Source of the DNA: Albula goreensis | Taxonomy: Eukaryota > Chordata > Actinopteri > Albuliformes > Albulidae | Direction of reading: 5' to 3' | Length of the DNA: 64,000 nt | NCBI GenBank assembly: GCA_022829145.1 | Contig: CM040747.1 | Coordinates: 33,620,052-33,684,051, forward strand | Shown here: one piece after another, positions 11,501 to 56,616 of the stretch | How the letters are laid out: each line of letters starts with the position of its first letter | Numbering within the stretch: the stretch's first letter is position 1 | Program-made: the position numbers and the translations under genes | Notes under the pieces: generated by a model | What the model saw: only the letters and a program-made list of their open reading frames with translations | Told to the model about the DNA's origin: nothing | Database searches by the model: none

Positions 11501-12481
11501 TCAGGGCAAAGCGGAAGCTGACTAAGCAGAGCGCTAAACAGATGTAAAGATCTGAAACCCATCTCACCTCCACGAAGCCCCCTAAGCTGTGAGCAGGTGG
11601 GGGAAACTTTGTTTGGACGTATCAGCTGAATTATAAATCAGTTCCACAAAGGTCCACGAGCTTGCTGTGAGCTCATTGCATCCAAACATGTTCCCCAGGG
11701 CTTTTTTTTTTTATTTTTGCACTTCAGTCAGAACAATTGAACCAGCTGGAGAGTATTGGCCTGATTTATCAAAGCTTCCAGTATTGTCAATGACATGATT
11801 TGTGTTTTGAGAGCGTGAACTACCATAAACAATTACATTTTGTCTTTGTCTTTAAGCACAAAAACAGCTATGTGAATACTTAACGCTTTAGGTAAGCAGG
11901 CCTTAATACGTACTCACAGTGTGTGTATTCTCTATTATGTGTATGTGTGTGTTGTTTGGCAGAGAAGAACCCACTATGCCTGTCATTTTCAGAGCGACTA
12001 CTCAACAGGACAAGTAGGTCAATAGCCAGGAAGTGACTGACTGGCATGAACTAAAAGTCTTAAAATGGATAGACAATCATGCTCCAAAAAAGATCAGTTA
12101 GGTGCATACAACCAAAATCAATTCTAAATTACAAAAGGTAATTACCAGAACTGGTACAATAAGCAGTGACATCCCCATGTCAGATATGTTTAATAAAATG
12201 GACACCAGTGGAAACACAGTAAAGACTAACAGTTATCAGCTTATTTTTCTCCTGTGGTTTTTTATTTGACAATAATAACACTCTTTATTCAACCTGTTTT
12301 GAATGAGGAGCTGCCCTCTTCCACAGTGTTAGGCAGTGGCCTATATCCCAGTGTTTGCAGTTGAAAGCTGATGAAGGCCGTTCTATATTACCTTCAGTAA
12401 TTTTGGTGAGGTGGATTACAAAAAACAGTTATTACAGGCCAGTGACAGGCGGTAATTTCTCCATGTAATACTCCAAAGAAA
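8596..12481. other. Intergenic region between BUB1B and PAK6, no gene recognised
   Basis: AT-rich, with several A/T homopolymers and only short random ORFs. The single item of note is a perfect-consensus splice donor (CAG|GTAAGC) at 9294/9295, after a moderately GC-rich stretch from about 9000. That could mark a noncoding first exon of PAK6 or of a BUB1B-PAK6 read-through; it is listed separately. Confidence 0.6.
9000..9294 (+). promoter_or_regulatory. Candidate noncoding 5' exon (PAK6 or read-through), ends in strong donor
   Basis: The stretch contains several CpGs (for example around 9013-9022 and 9071-9080) and ends CGGTCAG|GTAAGC, an ideal U1 donor. PAK6 must have at least one upstream noncoding exon because its first coding exon begins at a 3' splice site (21851). 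Assignment of this segment is conjecture. Confidence 0.25.
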
Positions 12482-12886
12482 GTGGCTCTGCTCCCCTCGC
12501 TCTAAGATGCTGGGTGGCGAATGGCAGGGGGGAGGTGGAGAAGGTGGCTTTGCTCCCCTCGCTCTAAGATGCTGGGTGAGGAATGGCAGGGGGGAGGTGG
12601 AGAAGGTGGCTCTGCTCCCCTCGCTCTAAGATGCTGGGTGAGGAATGGCAGGGGGGAGGTGGAGAAGGTGGCTCTGCTCCCCGCTCTAAGATGCTGGGTG
12701 ACGAATGGCATTGGGGAGGTGGAGAAGGTGGCTCTGCTCCCCTCGCTCTAAGATGCTGGGTGAGGAATGGCATGGGGGAGGTGGAGAGAAGGTGGCTCTG
12801 CTCCCCTCGCTCTAAGATGCTGGGTGAGGAATGGCAGGGGGGAGGTGGAGAAAGTGGCTCTGCTCCCCTCGCTCTAAGATGCTGGA
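12482..12886. repeat. 62-bp minisatellite, about 6.5 copies
   Basis: Tandem units of about 62 bp. Each has a CTCTGCTCCCC block, then GCTCTAAGATGCTGGGTGA, then GGAATGGCA, then a G-rich GGGGGGAGGTGGAGAA end. Small indels occur (one unit lacks CTC, another gains GA). The strong strand asymmetry of G creates overlapping spurious ORFs on both strands. Confidence 0.95.
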
Positions 12887-21851: not shown

Positions 21852-36569
<14,718 letters not shown>

Positions 36570-40600: not shown

Positions 40601-41370
40601 CATCCTCTTTCAAAATCTATTAGATTCCCCCAACTGGTTTAGTAACTTGCATATTGCAGCACTGATTTTAGTGCTGTTATAGCCAAGAAATATCAGTGAT
40701 TAATACTGAAATTAATATGAAACACATTATGATTTAACTCCTTCAAAGTTGTCCTTGAATTCTCCTTCAGAGTTGTTCATATATATGTATTTTTTGGGAG
40801 CTCTGTTACAGGACAATGGAAAAAATAAGTGCAAGAGTTACCCCATGCACTGAGATATTTAAAGAGCAGAGCTGAGAGAGAATGAGCTCTCGCGGTGTAG
40901 CAGGACTGACAGGCAGGTGTCCGTGTCATCTGACTTAGGGACTTGTGATAAGAGTCATTGGGGCTTAGCCAGAGCCAGATAAATCCGTTCCAAACCTGAG
41001 CATGTGGTCAGTCCAGACTGACAACCCCCTCATTTCAGCCTGTTTCAAGCTTATCCACATACCTCTAACCTGGACATCTAATGTGGACATTTGATTCTGA
41101 ACTATGACGAGAAACAGTCATAAAGGGAAATATATAGAAAAATCACGTGTCCAGAAATAACCCTTAAGTACTGGTCAGTACTTTTCATTAGTAGAGGTGT
41201 ATGGAATGTATAGTGGGAAAAGTGGGGGAAGGGTATGGAGTCTAAGAAGGTCTACAGAGATAAGATGAGGTGCCTGTTGTCCTAAAATGGATATTAGCAA
41301 GTATGGATCACTAAATTGACCCCTCTCAGTAGATGTAGGACCAAATTGGATTTTTCCCCTCCCATGTCTC
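37628..41370. other. Intergenic region between PAK6 and the myosin copy
   Basis: No gene recognised. It holds a SINE at 38732-38825 and a possible further repeat around 38290-38365. The remaining ORFs are short and without recognisable motifs. Confidence 0.6.
38732..38825 (-). mobile_element. tRNA-derived SINE, 5' part, minus strand
   Basis: The reverse complement reads gcagagtggtttgagaggct, then the B box ggtttgaatcc, then, after a gap, gtaaatatccagctg. This is the same order as in the SINE at 34451-34618. Confidence 0.6.
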
Positions 41371-41379
41371 CAGCTACCT

Positions 41380-41389
41380 CCTTATTTGG
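41380..41389. promoter_or_regulatory. Exact CArG box (SRF site) upstream of the intronless myosin
   Basis: CCTTATTTGG fits CC(A/T)6GG exactly. It lies 13 bp before a TATA box and 120 bp before the myosin ATG. CArG boxes are the SRF sites of many cardiac and skeletal muscle promoters. Confidence 0.5.
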
Positions 41390-41402: not shown

Positions 41403-41410
41403 TATATAGG
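41403..41410 (+). promoter_or_regulatory. TATA box candidate for the intronless myosin
   Basis: TATATAGG; initiation would be expected near 41432-41436, leaving a 5' UTR of about 75 nt before ATG 41509. Inferred from position; no start site is shown. Confidence 0.45.
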
Positions 41411-41508
41411 TTTCACACAGTGCTTTGGGCTTGTCAGTAATCCTCTGCATTCAGTGAAAGCCTCTGTTGTTTCTGTTTGAGCAAGCTCAGCTCTTCTCAC
41501 ATTGCAAG

Positions 41509-44500
41509 ATGGGTGATGCTCTCATGGCTGAGTTCGGGAAGGCAGCTCCGTATCTGAGGAAGTCTGACAAGGAGCGGCTGGAGGCCCAGACCAGGCCCTT
41601 CGACATCAAGACCGAGTGCTTCGTGGTCGACGATAAAGTGGAATATGTTAAGGGCCAGATCACCAGCAAAGAGGGGGCAAGGTGACCGTGAACACTGAGG
41701 ACGGAAGAACCGTGACCGTGAAGGAGTCAGATGTCCACCCACAGAACCCGCCAAAGTTTGACAAAATTGAAGACATGGCCATGTTCACCTTCCTGCATGA
41801 GCCCGCTGTGCTGTTTAACCTCAAAGAGCGTTACGCCGCCTGGATGATCTACACCTACTCTGGGTTGTTCTGTGTGACAGTGAATCCTTACAAGTGGTTG
41901 CCTGTCTACGACTCGGAGGTTGTGGCAGCCTATAGAGGAAAGAAGAGATCCGAGGCTCCCCCCCACATCTTCTCGATTTCAGACAATGCCTATCAGTACA
42001 TGCTTACTGACCGGGAGAACCAGTCTGTCCTCATCACCGGAGAATCCGGGGCTGGGAAGACTGTGAACACCAAGAGGGTCATTCAGTATTTTGCGAGCAT
42101 TGCTGCTGCAGGCGGAGGAAAGAAGGATACCAGCAAGGGAACGCTGGAGGATCAAATCATCCAAGCTAACCCAGCTTTAGAGGCTTTCGGCAATGCCAAA
42201 ACTGTGAGGAATGACAACTCCTCACGTTTCGGGAAATTCATCCGCATTCATTTTGGAGTAAGTGGCAAACTGTCCTCTGCTGACATTGAAACGTACCTGC
42301 TTGAGAAATCTCGTGTCACTTTTCAGCTCAAATCTGAGAGGAACTACCACATCTTTTTCCAGATTTTGTCCAACAAAAAGCCAGAACTACTGGACATGCT
42401 GTTGATCACTAACAACCCATATGATTATGCGTATGTCTCCCAAGGAGAGGTGTCGGTCGCTTCAATTGACGACTCAGAGGAACTGATTGCAACCGACAGT
42501 GCCTTTGATGTGTTAGGCTTCACAGCAGATGAGAAGATGGGTGTTTACAAGCTGACAGGCGCCATCATGCACTACGGCAATATGAAGTTCAAGCAGAAGC
42601 AGCGCGAGGAGCAGGCAGAGCCTGACGGCACCGAGTCAGCTGACAAATCGGCCTACCTGATGGGGCTCAACTCGGCTGACCTCTGAAGGGACTATGCCAT
42701 CCAAGGGTTAAAGTCGGCAATGAATATGTCACTAAAGGCCAAAATGTAGATCAAGTCTACTACTCAATTGGTGCACTGGCTAAGTCAGTGTATGAAAAAA
42801 TGTTCAACTGGATGGTGGTGAGAATCAACCAGTCTCTTGAAACCAAGCAGCAGCGTCAGTATTTCATAGGTGTGCTGGACATTGCGGGGTTTGAGATATT
42901 TGACTTCAACACCTTTGAGCAGCTCTGCATTAACTTCACCAACGAGAAACTGCAACAGTTTTTCAACCATCACATGTTTGTGCTGGAGCAAGAGGAGTAC
43001 AAGAAGGAGGGAATTGACTGGGAGTTCATTGACTTTGGCATGGACTTGCAGGCTTGCATCGACCTCATCGAAAAGCCCCTTGGGATCATGTCGATTCTGG
43101 AGGAAGAGTGCATGTTTCCAAAAGCCAGCGATCAAACCTTTAAGTCCAAGCTCTACGACAACCACTTGGGTAAGTCGAACATGTTCCAGAAGCCACGCGT
43201 AGTGAAGGGCAAGGCGGAGGCACACTTTGCCCTTGTTCATTATGCCGGTACGGTTGATTACAACATCTCAGGGTGGCTGGTGAAGAACAAAGACCCGCTA
43301 AATGAAACTGTGGTGGGACTGTACCAGAAATCCTCCCTGAAGCTGCTCAGCACCCTGTTCAGCAATTACGCTGGTGCAGAAGGGGGTGACAAATCTGGCA
43401 AAGGGCCAAAAAGAAAGGGTCCTCTTTTCAAACAGTGTCTGCCCTGCACAGGGAAAACCTCAACAAACTCATGAATAACCTGAGGACCACCCACCCCCAT
43501 TTTGTGCGGTGCTTGATCCCCAACGAAAACAAGACACCAGGAGTCATGGATAACTGCCTTGTGATGCACCAGCTTCGTTGTAATGGTGTGCTGGAAGGCA
43601 TAAGAATTTGTAGAAAGGGCTTTCCAAATAGAGTCCTGTACGGCGACTTCAAGCAGAGGTACAGAATCCTGAATGCTTCTGCAATTCCCGAGGGCCAGTT
43701 CATCGACAGCAAAAAGAGTGCCGAGAAACTGCTGGGATCTCTGGACATTGACCACACCCAGTACCGGTTTGGACACACTAAGGTCTTCTTTAAAGCTGGA
43801 TTACTGGGCACACTGGAAGAGATGAGGATGACCAACTTGCCCGCATCATTACGAGAATCCAGGCCAATGGCCGTGCCCTACTCATGAGGGCAGAGTACCA
43901 GAAGCTTGTGGAACGCAGGGATGCATTGATGGTCATTCAGTGGAATCTCCGCTCCTTCCTGGGCGTGAAGAACTGGCCCTGGATGAAAATGTACTTTAAG
44001 ATCAAACCCCTGCTGAAGAGTGCAGAGTCAGAGAAGGAAATGGCAAACATGAAGGACGAATTCAACAAGCTGAAGGAAGCCTTGGATAAGTCAGAGGGCC
44101 GACGGAAGGAGCTGGAGGAGAAGATGGTGTCCCTTCTGCAGGAGAAGAACGATCTGCACCTCCAGCTGCAGTCTGAACAGGACACACTGACGGACGCGGA
44201 GGAGCGCTGCGAACAGCTGATCAAGAGCAAGATCCAGATGGAGGCGAAAGCAAAAGAGCTGATAGAGCGACTGGAAGAGGAGGAGGAGATAAATGCGGAT
44301 CTCACTGCCAAGAAACGCAAGCTGGAGGACGAGTGCTCCGAGCTGAAGAAAGACATTGATGACCTGGAGCTAACCTTAGCTAAGGTCGAGAAAGAGAAAC
44401 ATGCTACGGAGAACAAAGTTAAAAACCTGACTGAGGAAATGGCCTCTCAGGACGAAAACATCATGAAGTTGACAAAGGAGAAAAAGGCTTTGCAGGAAGC

Positions 44501-47303
44501 CCATCAGCAAACACTTGACGACCTTCAGAGTGAGGAGGACAAGGCAAACACGCTGACTAAAGCCAAGATTAAGCTTGAGCAACAGGTTGATGACTTGGAG
44601 GGCTCTCTGGAACAGGAGAAAAAAGTCAGAATGGATTTGGAACGTGCAAAAAGAAAGCTTGAGGGGGACATAAAACTGACCCAAGAGAATGTGATGGATT
44701 TAGAAAATGACAAACAGCAACTTGAAGAGAAACTCAAGAAAAAGGACTTTGAAATTAATCAGCTGAATGGGACGGTGGAGGATGAGCAAATGGTGAGCGT
44801 TCAGCTGCAGAAGAAGCTGAAGGAGAACCAGGCCCGCATTGAGGAGCTGGAGGAGGAGCTGGATGCTGAACGTGCATCCCGAGCCAAGGTGGAGAAGCAG
44901 CGGTCAGACCTATCGCGTGAGCTGGAGGACCTCAGTGAACGGCTGGAAGAGGCTGGGGGTGCTACTTCCACCCAAGTGGAACTCAATAAGAAGAGAGAGG
45001 CTGAGTTCCAGAAGCTGCGCAGGGACTTGGAGGAGTCTACCTTGCAACATGAGGCTACAGCTGCTGCGCTGAGGAAGAAACATGCAGACAGCGTGGCGGA
45101 GCTGGGGGAGCAGATTGACAACCTTCAGCGCGTCAAGCAAAAATTAGAGAAAGAGAAGAGTGAGCTAAAGCTGGAGCTGGATGACTTGGCCTCCAATATG
45201 GAGAACGTCATCAAGGCTAAGGCTAACCTTGAGAAGTTGAGTCGCACTCTTGAGGATCAGATGAATGAGCACAAGACCAAGGCGGAGGAGACCCAGAGGG
45301 CTCTCAATGACTTCACCACGCAGAGGGCCAAGCTGCTCACTGAGAATGGGGAGCTCAGCCGCCAGCTGGAGGAAAAGGAGTGCCTGATCTCTCAGCTCAC
45401 CCGAGGCAAGAGCTCCTACACTCAGCAGCTAGAGGACCTTCGCAGACAACTTGAGGAGGAGGTGAAAGCAAAGAACTCCCTGGCACATGCGGTTCAGTCT
45501 GCTCGCCATGACTGCGACCTGCTGAGGGAACAGTACGAGGAAGAGCAAGAGGCCAAGGCGGAGCTGCAGAGGGCGCTGTCAAAGGCCAATACAGAGGTGT
45601 CCACCTGGAGGGCTAAGTATGAGACTGATGGCATCCAGAGGACCGAGGAGCTGGAAGAGGCTAAGAAAAAACTGGTCCAGCGACTGCAGGAAGCTGAAGA
45701 GGCAGTTGAGGCGGTGAATGCGAAGTGCTCCTCCCTTGAAAAGACGAAGCATCGCCTACAGAATGAGATCGAAGACCTCATGCTGGACCTCGAGCGATCA
45801 AACGCGGCATCCGCAGCTCTCGATAAGAAACAAAGGGTGTTTGACAAAGTCCTAGCGGAGTCGAAGCAGAAGTATGAGGAGTCGCAGTGCGAGCTGGAGT
45901 CGTCTCAGAAGGAGGCTCGAACCCTCAGCACTGAGCTCTTCAAACTGAAGAATGCATATGAGGAAGCCCTTGATCAACTGGAGACTACAAAGAGGGAGAA
46001 CAAAAACTTGCAGGAGGAGATCTCAGACCTCACCGACCAACTTGGCGAGGGAGGGAAGAGCGCTCATGAACTGGAAAAAGCTAGAAAGCAGCTGGAGCAA
46101 GAGAAGGCAGAACTGCAGTCTGCTCTAGAAGAAGCTGAGGGGTCTCTGGAACATGAAGAGAGCAAGATCCTTCGGGCTCAGCTGGAGTTTAACCAGGTGA
46201 AGGCAGACATTGAGCGCAAACTGTCTGAGAAGGACGAAGAGATGGAGCAAGTTAAAAGGAACTACCAGCGCATGGTAGAATCTTTGCAGACTTCCCTTGA
46301 GTCAGAGACCAGAAGTCGCAATGAGGCCCTTAGGGTAAAGAAGAAGATGGAGGGTGACCTCAATGAGATGGAGATCCAGCTGAGCCAGGCTAATAGGCAG
46401 GCTGCCGATGCCCAAAAGCAGCTGAAGGCTGTCCAGGCATACCTGAAAGACACTCAGCTGCAGCTGGACGATGTCTCTCATGGGAGCGAAGATCTGAAAG
46501 AGAACATCGCCCTTCTGGAGCGCAGGAACAACCTGTTGCAGGCAGAGCTGGAGGAGCTGCGTGCCATGCTGGAGCAGACGGAACGTGGGCGCAAGCTAGC
46601 GGAGCAGGAACTCACCGATGCCACGGAGAGGATGCAGCTCCTACACTCCCAGAACACCAGCCTCATCAACCAGAAGAAGAAGCAGGAGGCGGACATCATC
46701 CAACTCCAGAACGAGGTGGAGGAGGCCATTCAGGAGAACCGCAATGCTGAAGAGAAGGCTAAGAAGGCCATTACCGATGCCGCCATGATGGCGGAGGAGC
46801 TGAAGAAGGAGCAGGACACCAGCGCCCACCTGGAGCGCATGAAGAAGAACATGGAGCAGACCATCAAGGACCTGCAGCATCGCCTGGACGAAGCTGAGCA
46901 GATAGCCATGAAGGGAGGGAAGAAGCAGCTGCAGAAGATGGAGGGCCGGATCCGGGAGCTGGAAAATGAGCTGGAGGCAGAGCAGAAGCGCGCTACAGAG
47001 TCCATCAAGGGGGTGCGGAAGTACGAGCGGCGCATCAAGGAGCTCACCTACCAGACGGAAGAGGACCGCAAGAACATGGCCCGTCTCCAGGACCTGGTGG
47101 ACAAACTCCAGCTGAAGGTGAAGTCCTACAAGAGGACAGCCGAGGAGGCCGAGGAACAGGCGAACGCGAACCTGGCCAAGTTCCGCAAACTGCAGCATGA
47201 GCTGGAGGAAGCGGAGGAGCGGGCTGACATTGCGGAGTCCCAGGTGAACAAGCTCCGCGCCAAGACCAGGGACGGCTCTGGAAAGAAATCCCACGATGAA
47301 TGA
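41509..47303 (+). pseudogene. Intronless sarcomeric myosin heavy chain (cardiac/slow type), four 1-nt deletions; retrogene or processed pseudogene
   Basis: One uninterrupted block encodes a full-length class II sarcomeric myosin heavy chain: actin-activated motor, lever arm and coiled-coil rod. ATG 41509 starts [19 protein letters not shown], and the rod ends [17 protein letters not shown] at TGA 47301-47303. Length is 5795 nt; allowing for four single-base deletions gives 1932 codons, against about 1935 in human MYH7. Seen in order: P-loop GESGAGKT, switch [11 protein letters not shown], switch [12 protein letters not shown], both SH1/SH2 cysteines ([12 protein letters not shown]), lever-arm IQ region, WPWMK and IKPLLKSA hinge, and an unbroken rod. 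Frame is lost near 41673-41677, 42681-42684, 43400-43413 and 43826; the remaining 3.4 kb from 43884 is open. Vertebrate sarcomeric MYH genes normally have well over 30 coding exons, so this is a retrocopy. No poly(A) tract or clear target duplication remains. It is MYH6/MYH7-like by sequence, but the parent cannot be fixed. Whether it is expressed is unknown. Confidence 0.9.
43884..47303 (+). CDS. Open 1139-codon part of the intronless myosin: lever arm and rod
   Basis: A single frame from the IQ region to the stop. Heptad-repeat coiled coil with the charge pattern of a sarcomeric rod, conserved [21 protein letters not shown] and [22 protein letters not shown] blocks, and no stop or frameshift over 3.4 kb. 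A methionine at 43884 could in principle start a headless product, but that is only a by-product of the upstream deletion. Confidence 0.85.
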
Positions 47304-47428: not shown

Positions 47429-47434
47429 AATAAA
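47429..47434 (+). terminator. AATAAA polyadenylation signal after the myosin copy
   Basis: Canonical hexamer 126 nt after the myosin stop codon. It is not followed by a poly(A) tract, so there is no direct retroposition tail. Confidence 0.55.

Positions 47435-55509: not shown

Positions 55510-56616
<1,107 letters not shown>

Follow-up and report, generated by a model that had tools for sequence, protein, structure and literature searches.

The locus studied here raises the question of how a sarcomeric myosin heavy chain came to lie in a single exon, and whether this gene, broken by four frameshifts in the assembly, is a copy of an ordinary multi-exon gene, a pseudogene or a working gene in its own right. 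The window, by which we mean the whole 64-kb stretch of Albula goreensis DNA that was analysed, had earlier been described from its letters alone (the sequence-only reading). Our preferred answer, to which we give a probability of about 0.72, is that it contains the fish ortholog of myh6, a retrogene that arose before bowfin and teleosts parted and that replaced its lost multi-exon parent in an atrial role, the frameshifts being errors of the assembly.

Structure of the gene and its neighbours

On the plus strand of the window, five successive open frames (5795 bases) join into one myosin heavy chain of 1932 residues. The coding region, its segments and its neighbours are as follows.

27468..28025, +: upstream neighbour, a PAK6-like exon in which the kinase domain begins
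41509..47303, +: intronless coding region assigned to fish myh6/amhc, 1932 codons across four one-base frameshifts
41509..41672, +: frame segment 1, residues 1-55 (frameshift-aware alignment)
41673..42682, +: frame segment 2, P-loop and switch I motifs (alignment, motif match)
42683..43404, +: frame segment 3, switch II motif (alignment, motif match)
43405..43826, +: frame segment 4, SH-helix cysteines and converter (alignment, motif match)
43827..47303, +: frame segment 5, uninterrupted frame for the lever arm and the entire rod, with the stop at its end (alignment, motif match)
55510..56613, +: INAFM2-like ORF, downstream neighbour (InaF motif PF15018, E 1.2e-16)

In a frameshift-aware protein-to-DNA alignment, the Anguilla MYH6 protein (P0004) was aligned over residues 1-1932 of 1932 in one stretch without an intron, with one-base deletions at four places (about 41673, 42683, 43405 and 43827, that is, residues 56, 393, 634 and 775) and not one in-frame stop over all 1932 codons aligned. 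Motifs for the P-loop, switch I, switch II, the SH-helix cysteines and the lever arm were all found in the window protein, and the best match of the rod part among solved structures was to Myosin-7 chains. These results, together with the placement in the MYH6 clade described below, uphold what the sequence-only reading had proposed on structure: a full-length, intronless gene of cardiac or slow type, with four single-base deletions and no other in-frame stop, and with motor signatures, lever arm and rod preserved. The flanking PAK6 and INAFM2 genes that it named are recovered in a more guarded form. For the kinase exon, PAK6 was the top match among solved structures, with PAK5/7 1.7 bits behind (109.4 vs. 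107.7 bits), and the downstream ORF, which carries the InaF motif, is likely INAFM2, with INAFM1 as the other candidate. The window also holds two minisatellites, at 12477-12885 (62-base units, 6.6 copies) and at 30908-31257 (53-base units, 6.6 copies).

Identity and copy number

Whole-protein identity to the window protein was 95.6% in Megalops atlanticus, 95.2% in Anguilla and 94.6-94.8% in Conger, Synaphobranchus and Aldrovandia, followed by other teleost myosin-6 proteins (about 87-92%) and then by myosin-7 types (about 83-86%). The closest proteins to the rod, among the best 120 of 7952, were full-length elopomorph myosins (Conger, Synaphobranchus, Aldrovandia and Anguilla, 94-95%). In a FastTree tree of 49 sequences, 46 of them drawn from the 176 retrieved proteins and three from the genome itself, the neopterygian MYH6 clade consisted of exactly the 22 MYH6 sequences chosen, the window gene, Amia and Atractosteus included, with a support of 1.0. 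The elopomorph MYH6 group had a support of 0.99, and a group of the window gene, Aldrovandia and the eels that excludes Megalops had 0.98, so that the window gene branches after Megalops and before the group of Aldrovandia and the eels (supports 0.99, 0.98 and 0.90). The myosin gene on chromosome C16 of the same genome was grouped with the Albula glossodonta myosin-7-like protein (support 1.00). The tree by itself thus indicates a probably albuliform, bonefish-like source.

A DNA search of the assembly (932 Mb) returned 272 matches, in which the window gene, located on C7, appeared once and the other listed matches were exon-sized, at 71-93% identity, the best of them belonging to multi-exon myh7-like genes on C16 and C3. 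No second MYH6-type gene was found in the assembly by this search, in which the best candidates were scored, and the evidence for the absence of such a locus is strong but not absolute. The idea of an unusual duplicate made from an ordinary multi-exon gene was therefore not supported, no other MYH6-type gene being present among the scored matches. As judged from these comparisons, the window gene is best regarded as the fish myh6 itself, the ortholog of zebrafish amhc/weak atrium, and not as a stray retrocopy. No relative was found among viral contigs. As a separate observation, positions 1423-2487 of the locus L004 (C1:22292688) hold an open frame of 354 residues in which sequence resembling the myosin-IX N-terminus leads into the beginning of a myosin head; it is not a second intronless sarcomeric myosin.

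The window gene resembles the fish myh6 (amhc, weak atrium) of other species in protein clade, in its long uninterrupted exon, in its primer sites and in that no second copy was found, and differs from it in the four one-base frameshifts of the Albula assembly; its entire coding region is intron-free, whereas the published fish myh6 marker covers about nt 459-1325. The teleost myh7-like genes, here those on C3 and C16, belong to a related cardiac/slow family within the same genome. The tetrapod MYH6/MYH7 pair likewise encodes cardiac/slow-type sarcomeric myosins (three mammalian proteins, P0025, P0083 and P0100, are 84.5-85.7% identical to the window protein), but these tetrapod genes are multi-exon, whereas the window gene has no coding intron. 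In the pages available of PMC4177693, miR-208 lies inside one of the tetrapod introns.

Protein constraint and the four frameshifts

At 1258 positions the 21 other MYH6 proteins all share one residue, and the window protein showed no change at any of them; each of the 21, tested in the same way, had from 2 to 19 such changes. Its terminal branch in the FastTree tree (0.0157) was the shortest among the six elopomorph MYH6 sequences. In comparison with the C16 gene, dN was 0.104 and dS was saturated (2.67), so that a branch-specific dN/dS cannot be given; by the protein, purifying selection acts on this gene and constraint is unrelaxed. The long protein-level selection that had been postulated for it is thus supported by the invariant residues, the short terminal branch and the lack of stops. 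One residue is at odds with this: tryptophan 1453, conserved in 159 of the 161 sarcomeric MYHs aligned, is serine here (TCG, 45861-45863) and cysteine in Megalops atlanticus, probably by two separate changes in related fishes. The invariant-site count does not register it, since Megalops also departs from the tryptophan.

The meaning of the frameshifts was assessed with a control in which the same aligner and filter were applied to 23 other MYH loci of the assembly, some of them overlapping, which yielded, over 15177 codons, 25 raw frameshifts, 10 of them supported, and not a single stop. The myh7-like gene on C3 (C3:37483876-37498500), whose first 66 residues were not found, has 4 supported (8 raw) frameshifts in 1849 codons, and that on C16 (C16:12258501-12272791) has 3 supported (3 raw) in 1914 codons, neither with a stop; the two genes hold N runs of 582 and 71 bases, respectively. 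The other 21 loci, which are partial, gave 3 supported (14 raw) frameshifts in 11414 codons; these loci have short exons, are often compared with a less closely related query, and reveal frameshifts less readily. With 4 raw and 4 supported frameshifts in 1932 codons, the window gene is like the two whole genes and above the partial loci. The presence of frameshifts without stops in the C3 and C16 genes points to residual indel errors in the assembly, and the four frameshifts of the window gene are likely errors of the same kind, a reading for which the control is uneven and which rests mostly on these two genes, because the partial loci show fewer frameshifts.

About 4.2% of random point changes would produce a stop, and four real indels in a neutral copy would usually be accompanied by tens of substitutions, many of them at invariant residues. 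Assembly error is the likelier explanation because the stops and invariant-site changes expected of a neutral copy are not seen. It could be supposed that an old functional gene was very recently pseudogenised in this lineage and that all four frameshifts are real, since all of them pass the control filter and the 21 partial loci have a lower supported rate; we consider this improbable, given the intact invariant residues, the lack of stops, the similar breaks in two multi-exon myh7-like genes, and the fact that the fish would be left without the only MYH6 found. Far less credible still is an ordinary neutral processed pseudogene. Lack of introns and frameshifts are what such a copy would display, but no parent was found in the genome among the best candidates scored, and a search for relaxed constraint gave instead the shortest elopomorph branch and unchanged invariant sites, so that this candidate was rejected. 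We conclude that the gene is probably intact in the animal. The sequence-only reading had set the age of the copy against its lack of stops beyond those due to the deletions: the part on stops and selection stands, and the frameshifts are better read as assembly errors than as decay, with the unevenness of the control kept in mind. For the Albula assembly, this means that frameshifts need not indicate pseudogenisation.

Extent and age of the intronless state

In the myh7-like gene on C16, the coding sequence is interrupted by 35 introns, each 81 to 452 bases long, at the usual MYH positions (one of them displaced in the alignment by a frameshift); in the window gene all coding introns are absent, the 5' ones included. 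How far this state extends among fishes may be seen from a phylogenetic marker. According to the available sections of Li et al. (2007; PMC1838417), zebrafish and torafugu were screened for single-copy exons of more than 800 bp, and myh6 (zebrafish exon ENSDARE00000025410) was one of ten markers tested. Genomic DNA served as the template for amplification of the markers, and for myh6 a 735-bp fragment was obtained from 14 taxa, with torafugu and the bowfin Amia calva among them; by the criteria of that study no paralog of the marker was found in zebrafish, medaka, stickleback or fugu. The myh6 nuclear exon is also given, with 789 bp and 874 taxa, in the part available of Betancur-R et al. (2013; PMC3644299). 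The primer sites are present in the window gene.

41966..41989, +: site of primer myh6_F459, 3 mismatches
42014..42036, +: site of nested primer myh6_F507, 2 mismatches
42803..42825, -: site of primer myh6_R1325, 0 mismatches

F459 lies at coding position 458, or 459 allowing for the first deletion, and R1325 at 1317, or 1319 allowing for two deletions, which implies two additional codons at this point in zebrafish. Between residues 168 and 417, nine introns of the multi-exon gene would fall within the outer amplicon, and at least seven, between residues 211 and 417, within the sequenced inner part. The long uninterrupted exon is common, at least in part, to fishes from bowfin through pufferfish, and in print it is documented for the marker segment only (about 0.86 kb of the motor part). 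If the intronless state is homologous across the marker taxa, it predates the bowfin-teleost split, for which the accessible text of PMC3682800 gives 327.8 Ma (296.2-358.1), with an elopomorph crown of 215.2 Ma.

The titles, abstract beginnings and passages covered of the open-licence PMC literature contained no outright statement that fish myh6 is intronless or a retrogene. A term search did not find myosin in the main texts on European sea bass single-exon genes (PMC8207432) and deuterostome intronless genes (PMC3155783). The available portions of PMC3912159 and PMC3091775 hold nothing on a fish myosin retrocopy, and those of PMC13286355, PMC4894956 and PMC10185342 nothing about myh6 exon structure; in the excerpts at hand, MYH6 of Sebastes is given as 1934 residues (PMC8228858), and in PMC10297432 rhodopsin is called intronless and MYH6 appears only as a barcode marker. 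Torafugu MYHM5 was considered as an intronless precedent and rejected, being a MYH14 gene with miR-499 in an intron in the part available of PMC3716903. The gene and its long exon were already known and are in routine use, which limits the surprise; the account of a retrogene replacement was not met in this literature and would be ours. The window myosin is several times longer than rhodopsin, and no multi-exon parent was found for the myosin among the matches scored. The two are alike in being intronless, the intron-less rhodopsin being of presumed retroduplication origin and in regular use in teleosts (PMC6650399, in part).

Origin of the gene: retroposition or loss of introns in place

We hypothesize that a spliced MYH6-type mRNA was reverse-transcribed and inserted between pak6 and inafm2 before bowfin and teleosts parted, that the retrogene came to run behind a muscle-type promoter with two CArG boxes for SRF, a GATA motif and a TATA box, and that the multi-exon MYH6 parent was lost, an mRNA from a gene without coding introns then giving rise to the atrial thick-filament myosin. 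We infer that this retrogene, which would have taken over the atrial role, dates from the bowfin-teleost split or earlier. According to the passages available of PMC2786259, the gene mutated in zebrafish weak atrium is myh6, which encodes the atrial MHC; by orthology, the window gene would have an atrial function. The putative regulatory elements are as follows.

41258..41263, +: GATA-type motif
41281..41290, +: perfect CArG box, CC(A/T)6GG
41380..41389, +: second perfect CArG box, its first base 23 bases ahead of the TATA box
41403..41409, +: TATATAG, resembling a TATA box, its first base 106 bases ahead of the ATG
47429..47434, +: poly(A) signal AATAAA, 126 bases past the stop codon

The GATA motif, both CArG boxes and the TATA box all lie within 255 bases upstream, and neither strand of the window has a further CArG-TATA pair. 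Among 20000 first-order Markov stretches of 260 bases, 10 had a CArG-TATA pair and 3 had two CArG boxes. No MEF2 site was matched in the upstream 700 bases. As predicted motif matches, these elements are arranged as in a compact muscle gene, and transcription would probably start near 41430. On the 3' side no poly(A) remnant was found, the longest run of A in the 397 bases after the stop being 5, in agreement with the earlier description; in a gene of this age, neither such a remnant nor a target-site duplication would be expected to persist.

Alternatively, the introns may have been lost in place, through recombination of a myh6 cDNA with its own gene, in which case pak6-inafm2 would be the ancestral address of a multi-exon myh6. 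We regard this as unlikely. It would fit the ordinary order of the promoter-like elements upstream, the missing poly(A) remnant and the failure to find a second MYH6 among the best candidates scored. Human MYH6 and MYH7 are neighbours, whereas the window gene (C7) is not linked to its nearest multi-exon relatives, the myh7-like genes on C3 and C16; in Erpetoichthys, the myosin-6-like, myosin-6 and myosin-7 proteins are recorded on contigs of one same size. Retroposition is favoured because all coding introns are gone, those at the 5' end too, and because the gene is on another chromosome than the myh7-like genes, as well as by the Erpetoichthys records.

Retroposition would also bear on miR-208. 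In the text available of PMC4177693, this microRNA is intronic to Myh6 in the coelacanth and to Myh6/Myh7 in mammals, and it is missing in ray-finned fishes, spotted gar included. Loss of the host intron by retroposition would account for its absence in ray-finned fishes; according to the same text it is missing in cartilaginous fish too, which a neopterygian retroposition cannot explain. We consider the odds about even that all neopterygian atrial myosins are encoded by a 5.8-kb retrogene more than about 300 My old that replaced its parent, the lost intron explaining the loss of miR-208. Whereas the coding sequence of a sister gene in this genome is cut up by 35 introns, this heart motor gene works as one exon, a state that apparently dates from before bowfin and teleosts parted. 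If retroposition is confirmed, the case would be a retrogene replacement of great size and age, whose link to the loss of miR-208 can be tested.

Traces of introns in annotated proteins

Annotated proteins offer a further, weaker test of the intronless state in the rest of the gene, since introns tend to leave traces in the output of annotation pipelines. Of the 176 retrieved proteins, 160 of suitable length were aligned, those with more than 87% identity to the window protein being taken as MYH6-type (a Perca protein at 87.3% is borderline). The 46 MYH6-type proteins have no internal insertion of at least 6 residues and 13 deletions, none of which has both edges at MYH exon junctions (one, in Atractosteus, has its left edge on a junction). 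In the 114 other MYHs, 15 of 21 insertions lie within two residues of a junction and two deletions match the exon 211-241 exactly. This pattern is suggestive only as support for an intronless fish MYH6, because some of the insertions in the other MYHs lie in loops 1 and 2, which are naturally variable and at junctions, and because one region (1083-1116) accounts for 7 of the 13 deletions in MYH6-type proteins and overlaps a single exon without matching its edges. In the Megalops protein, the gap of 58 residues runs across a canonical junction and does not follow it, which is what an intron called falsely within a continuous frame would produce. Seven MYH6 models from different fishes (P0034, P0036, P0037, P0040, P0043, P0120 and P0137) lack 27-32 residues around 1083-1116, with edges that vary, and these gaps are probably false introns introduced by automatic annotation.
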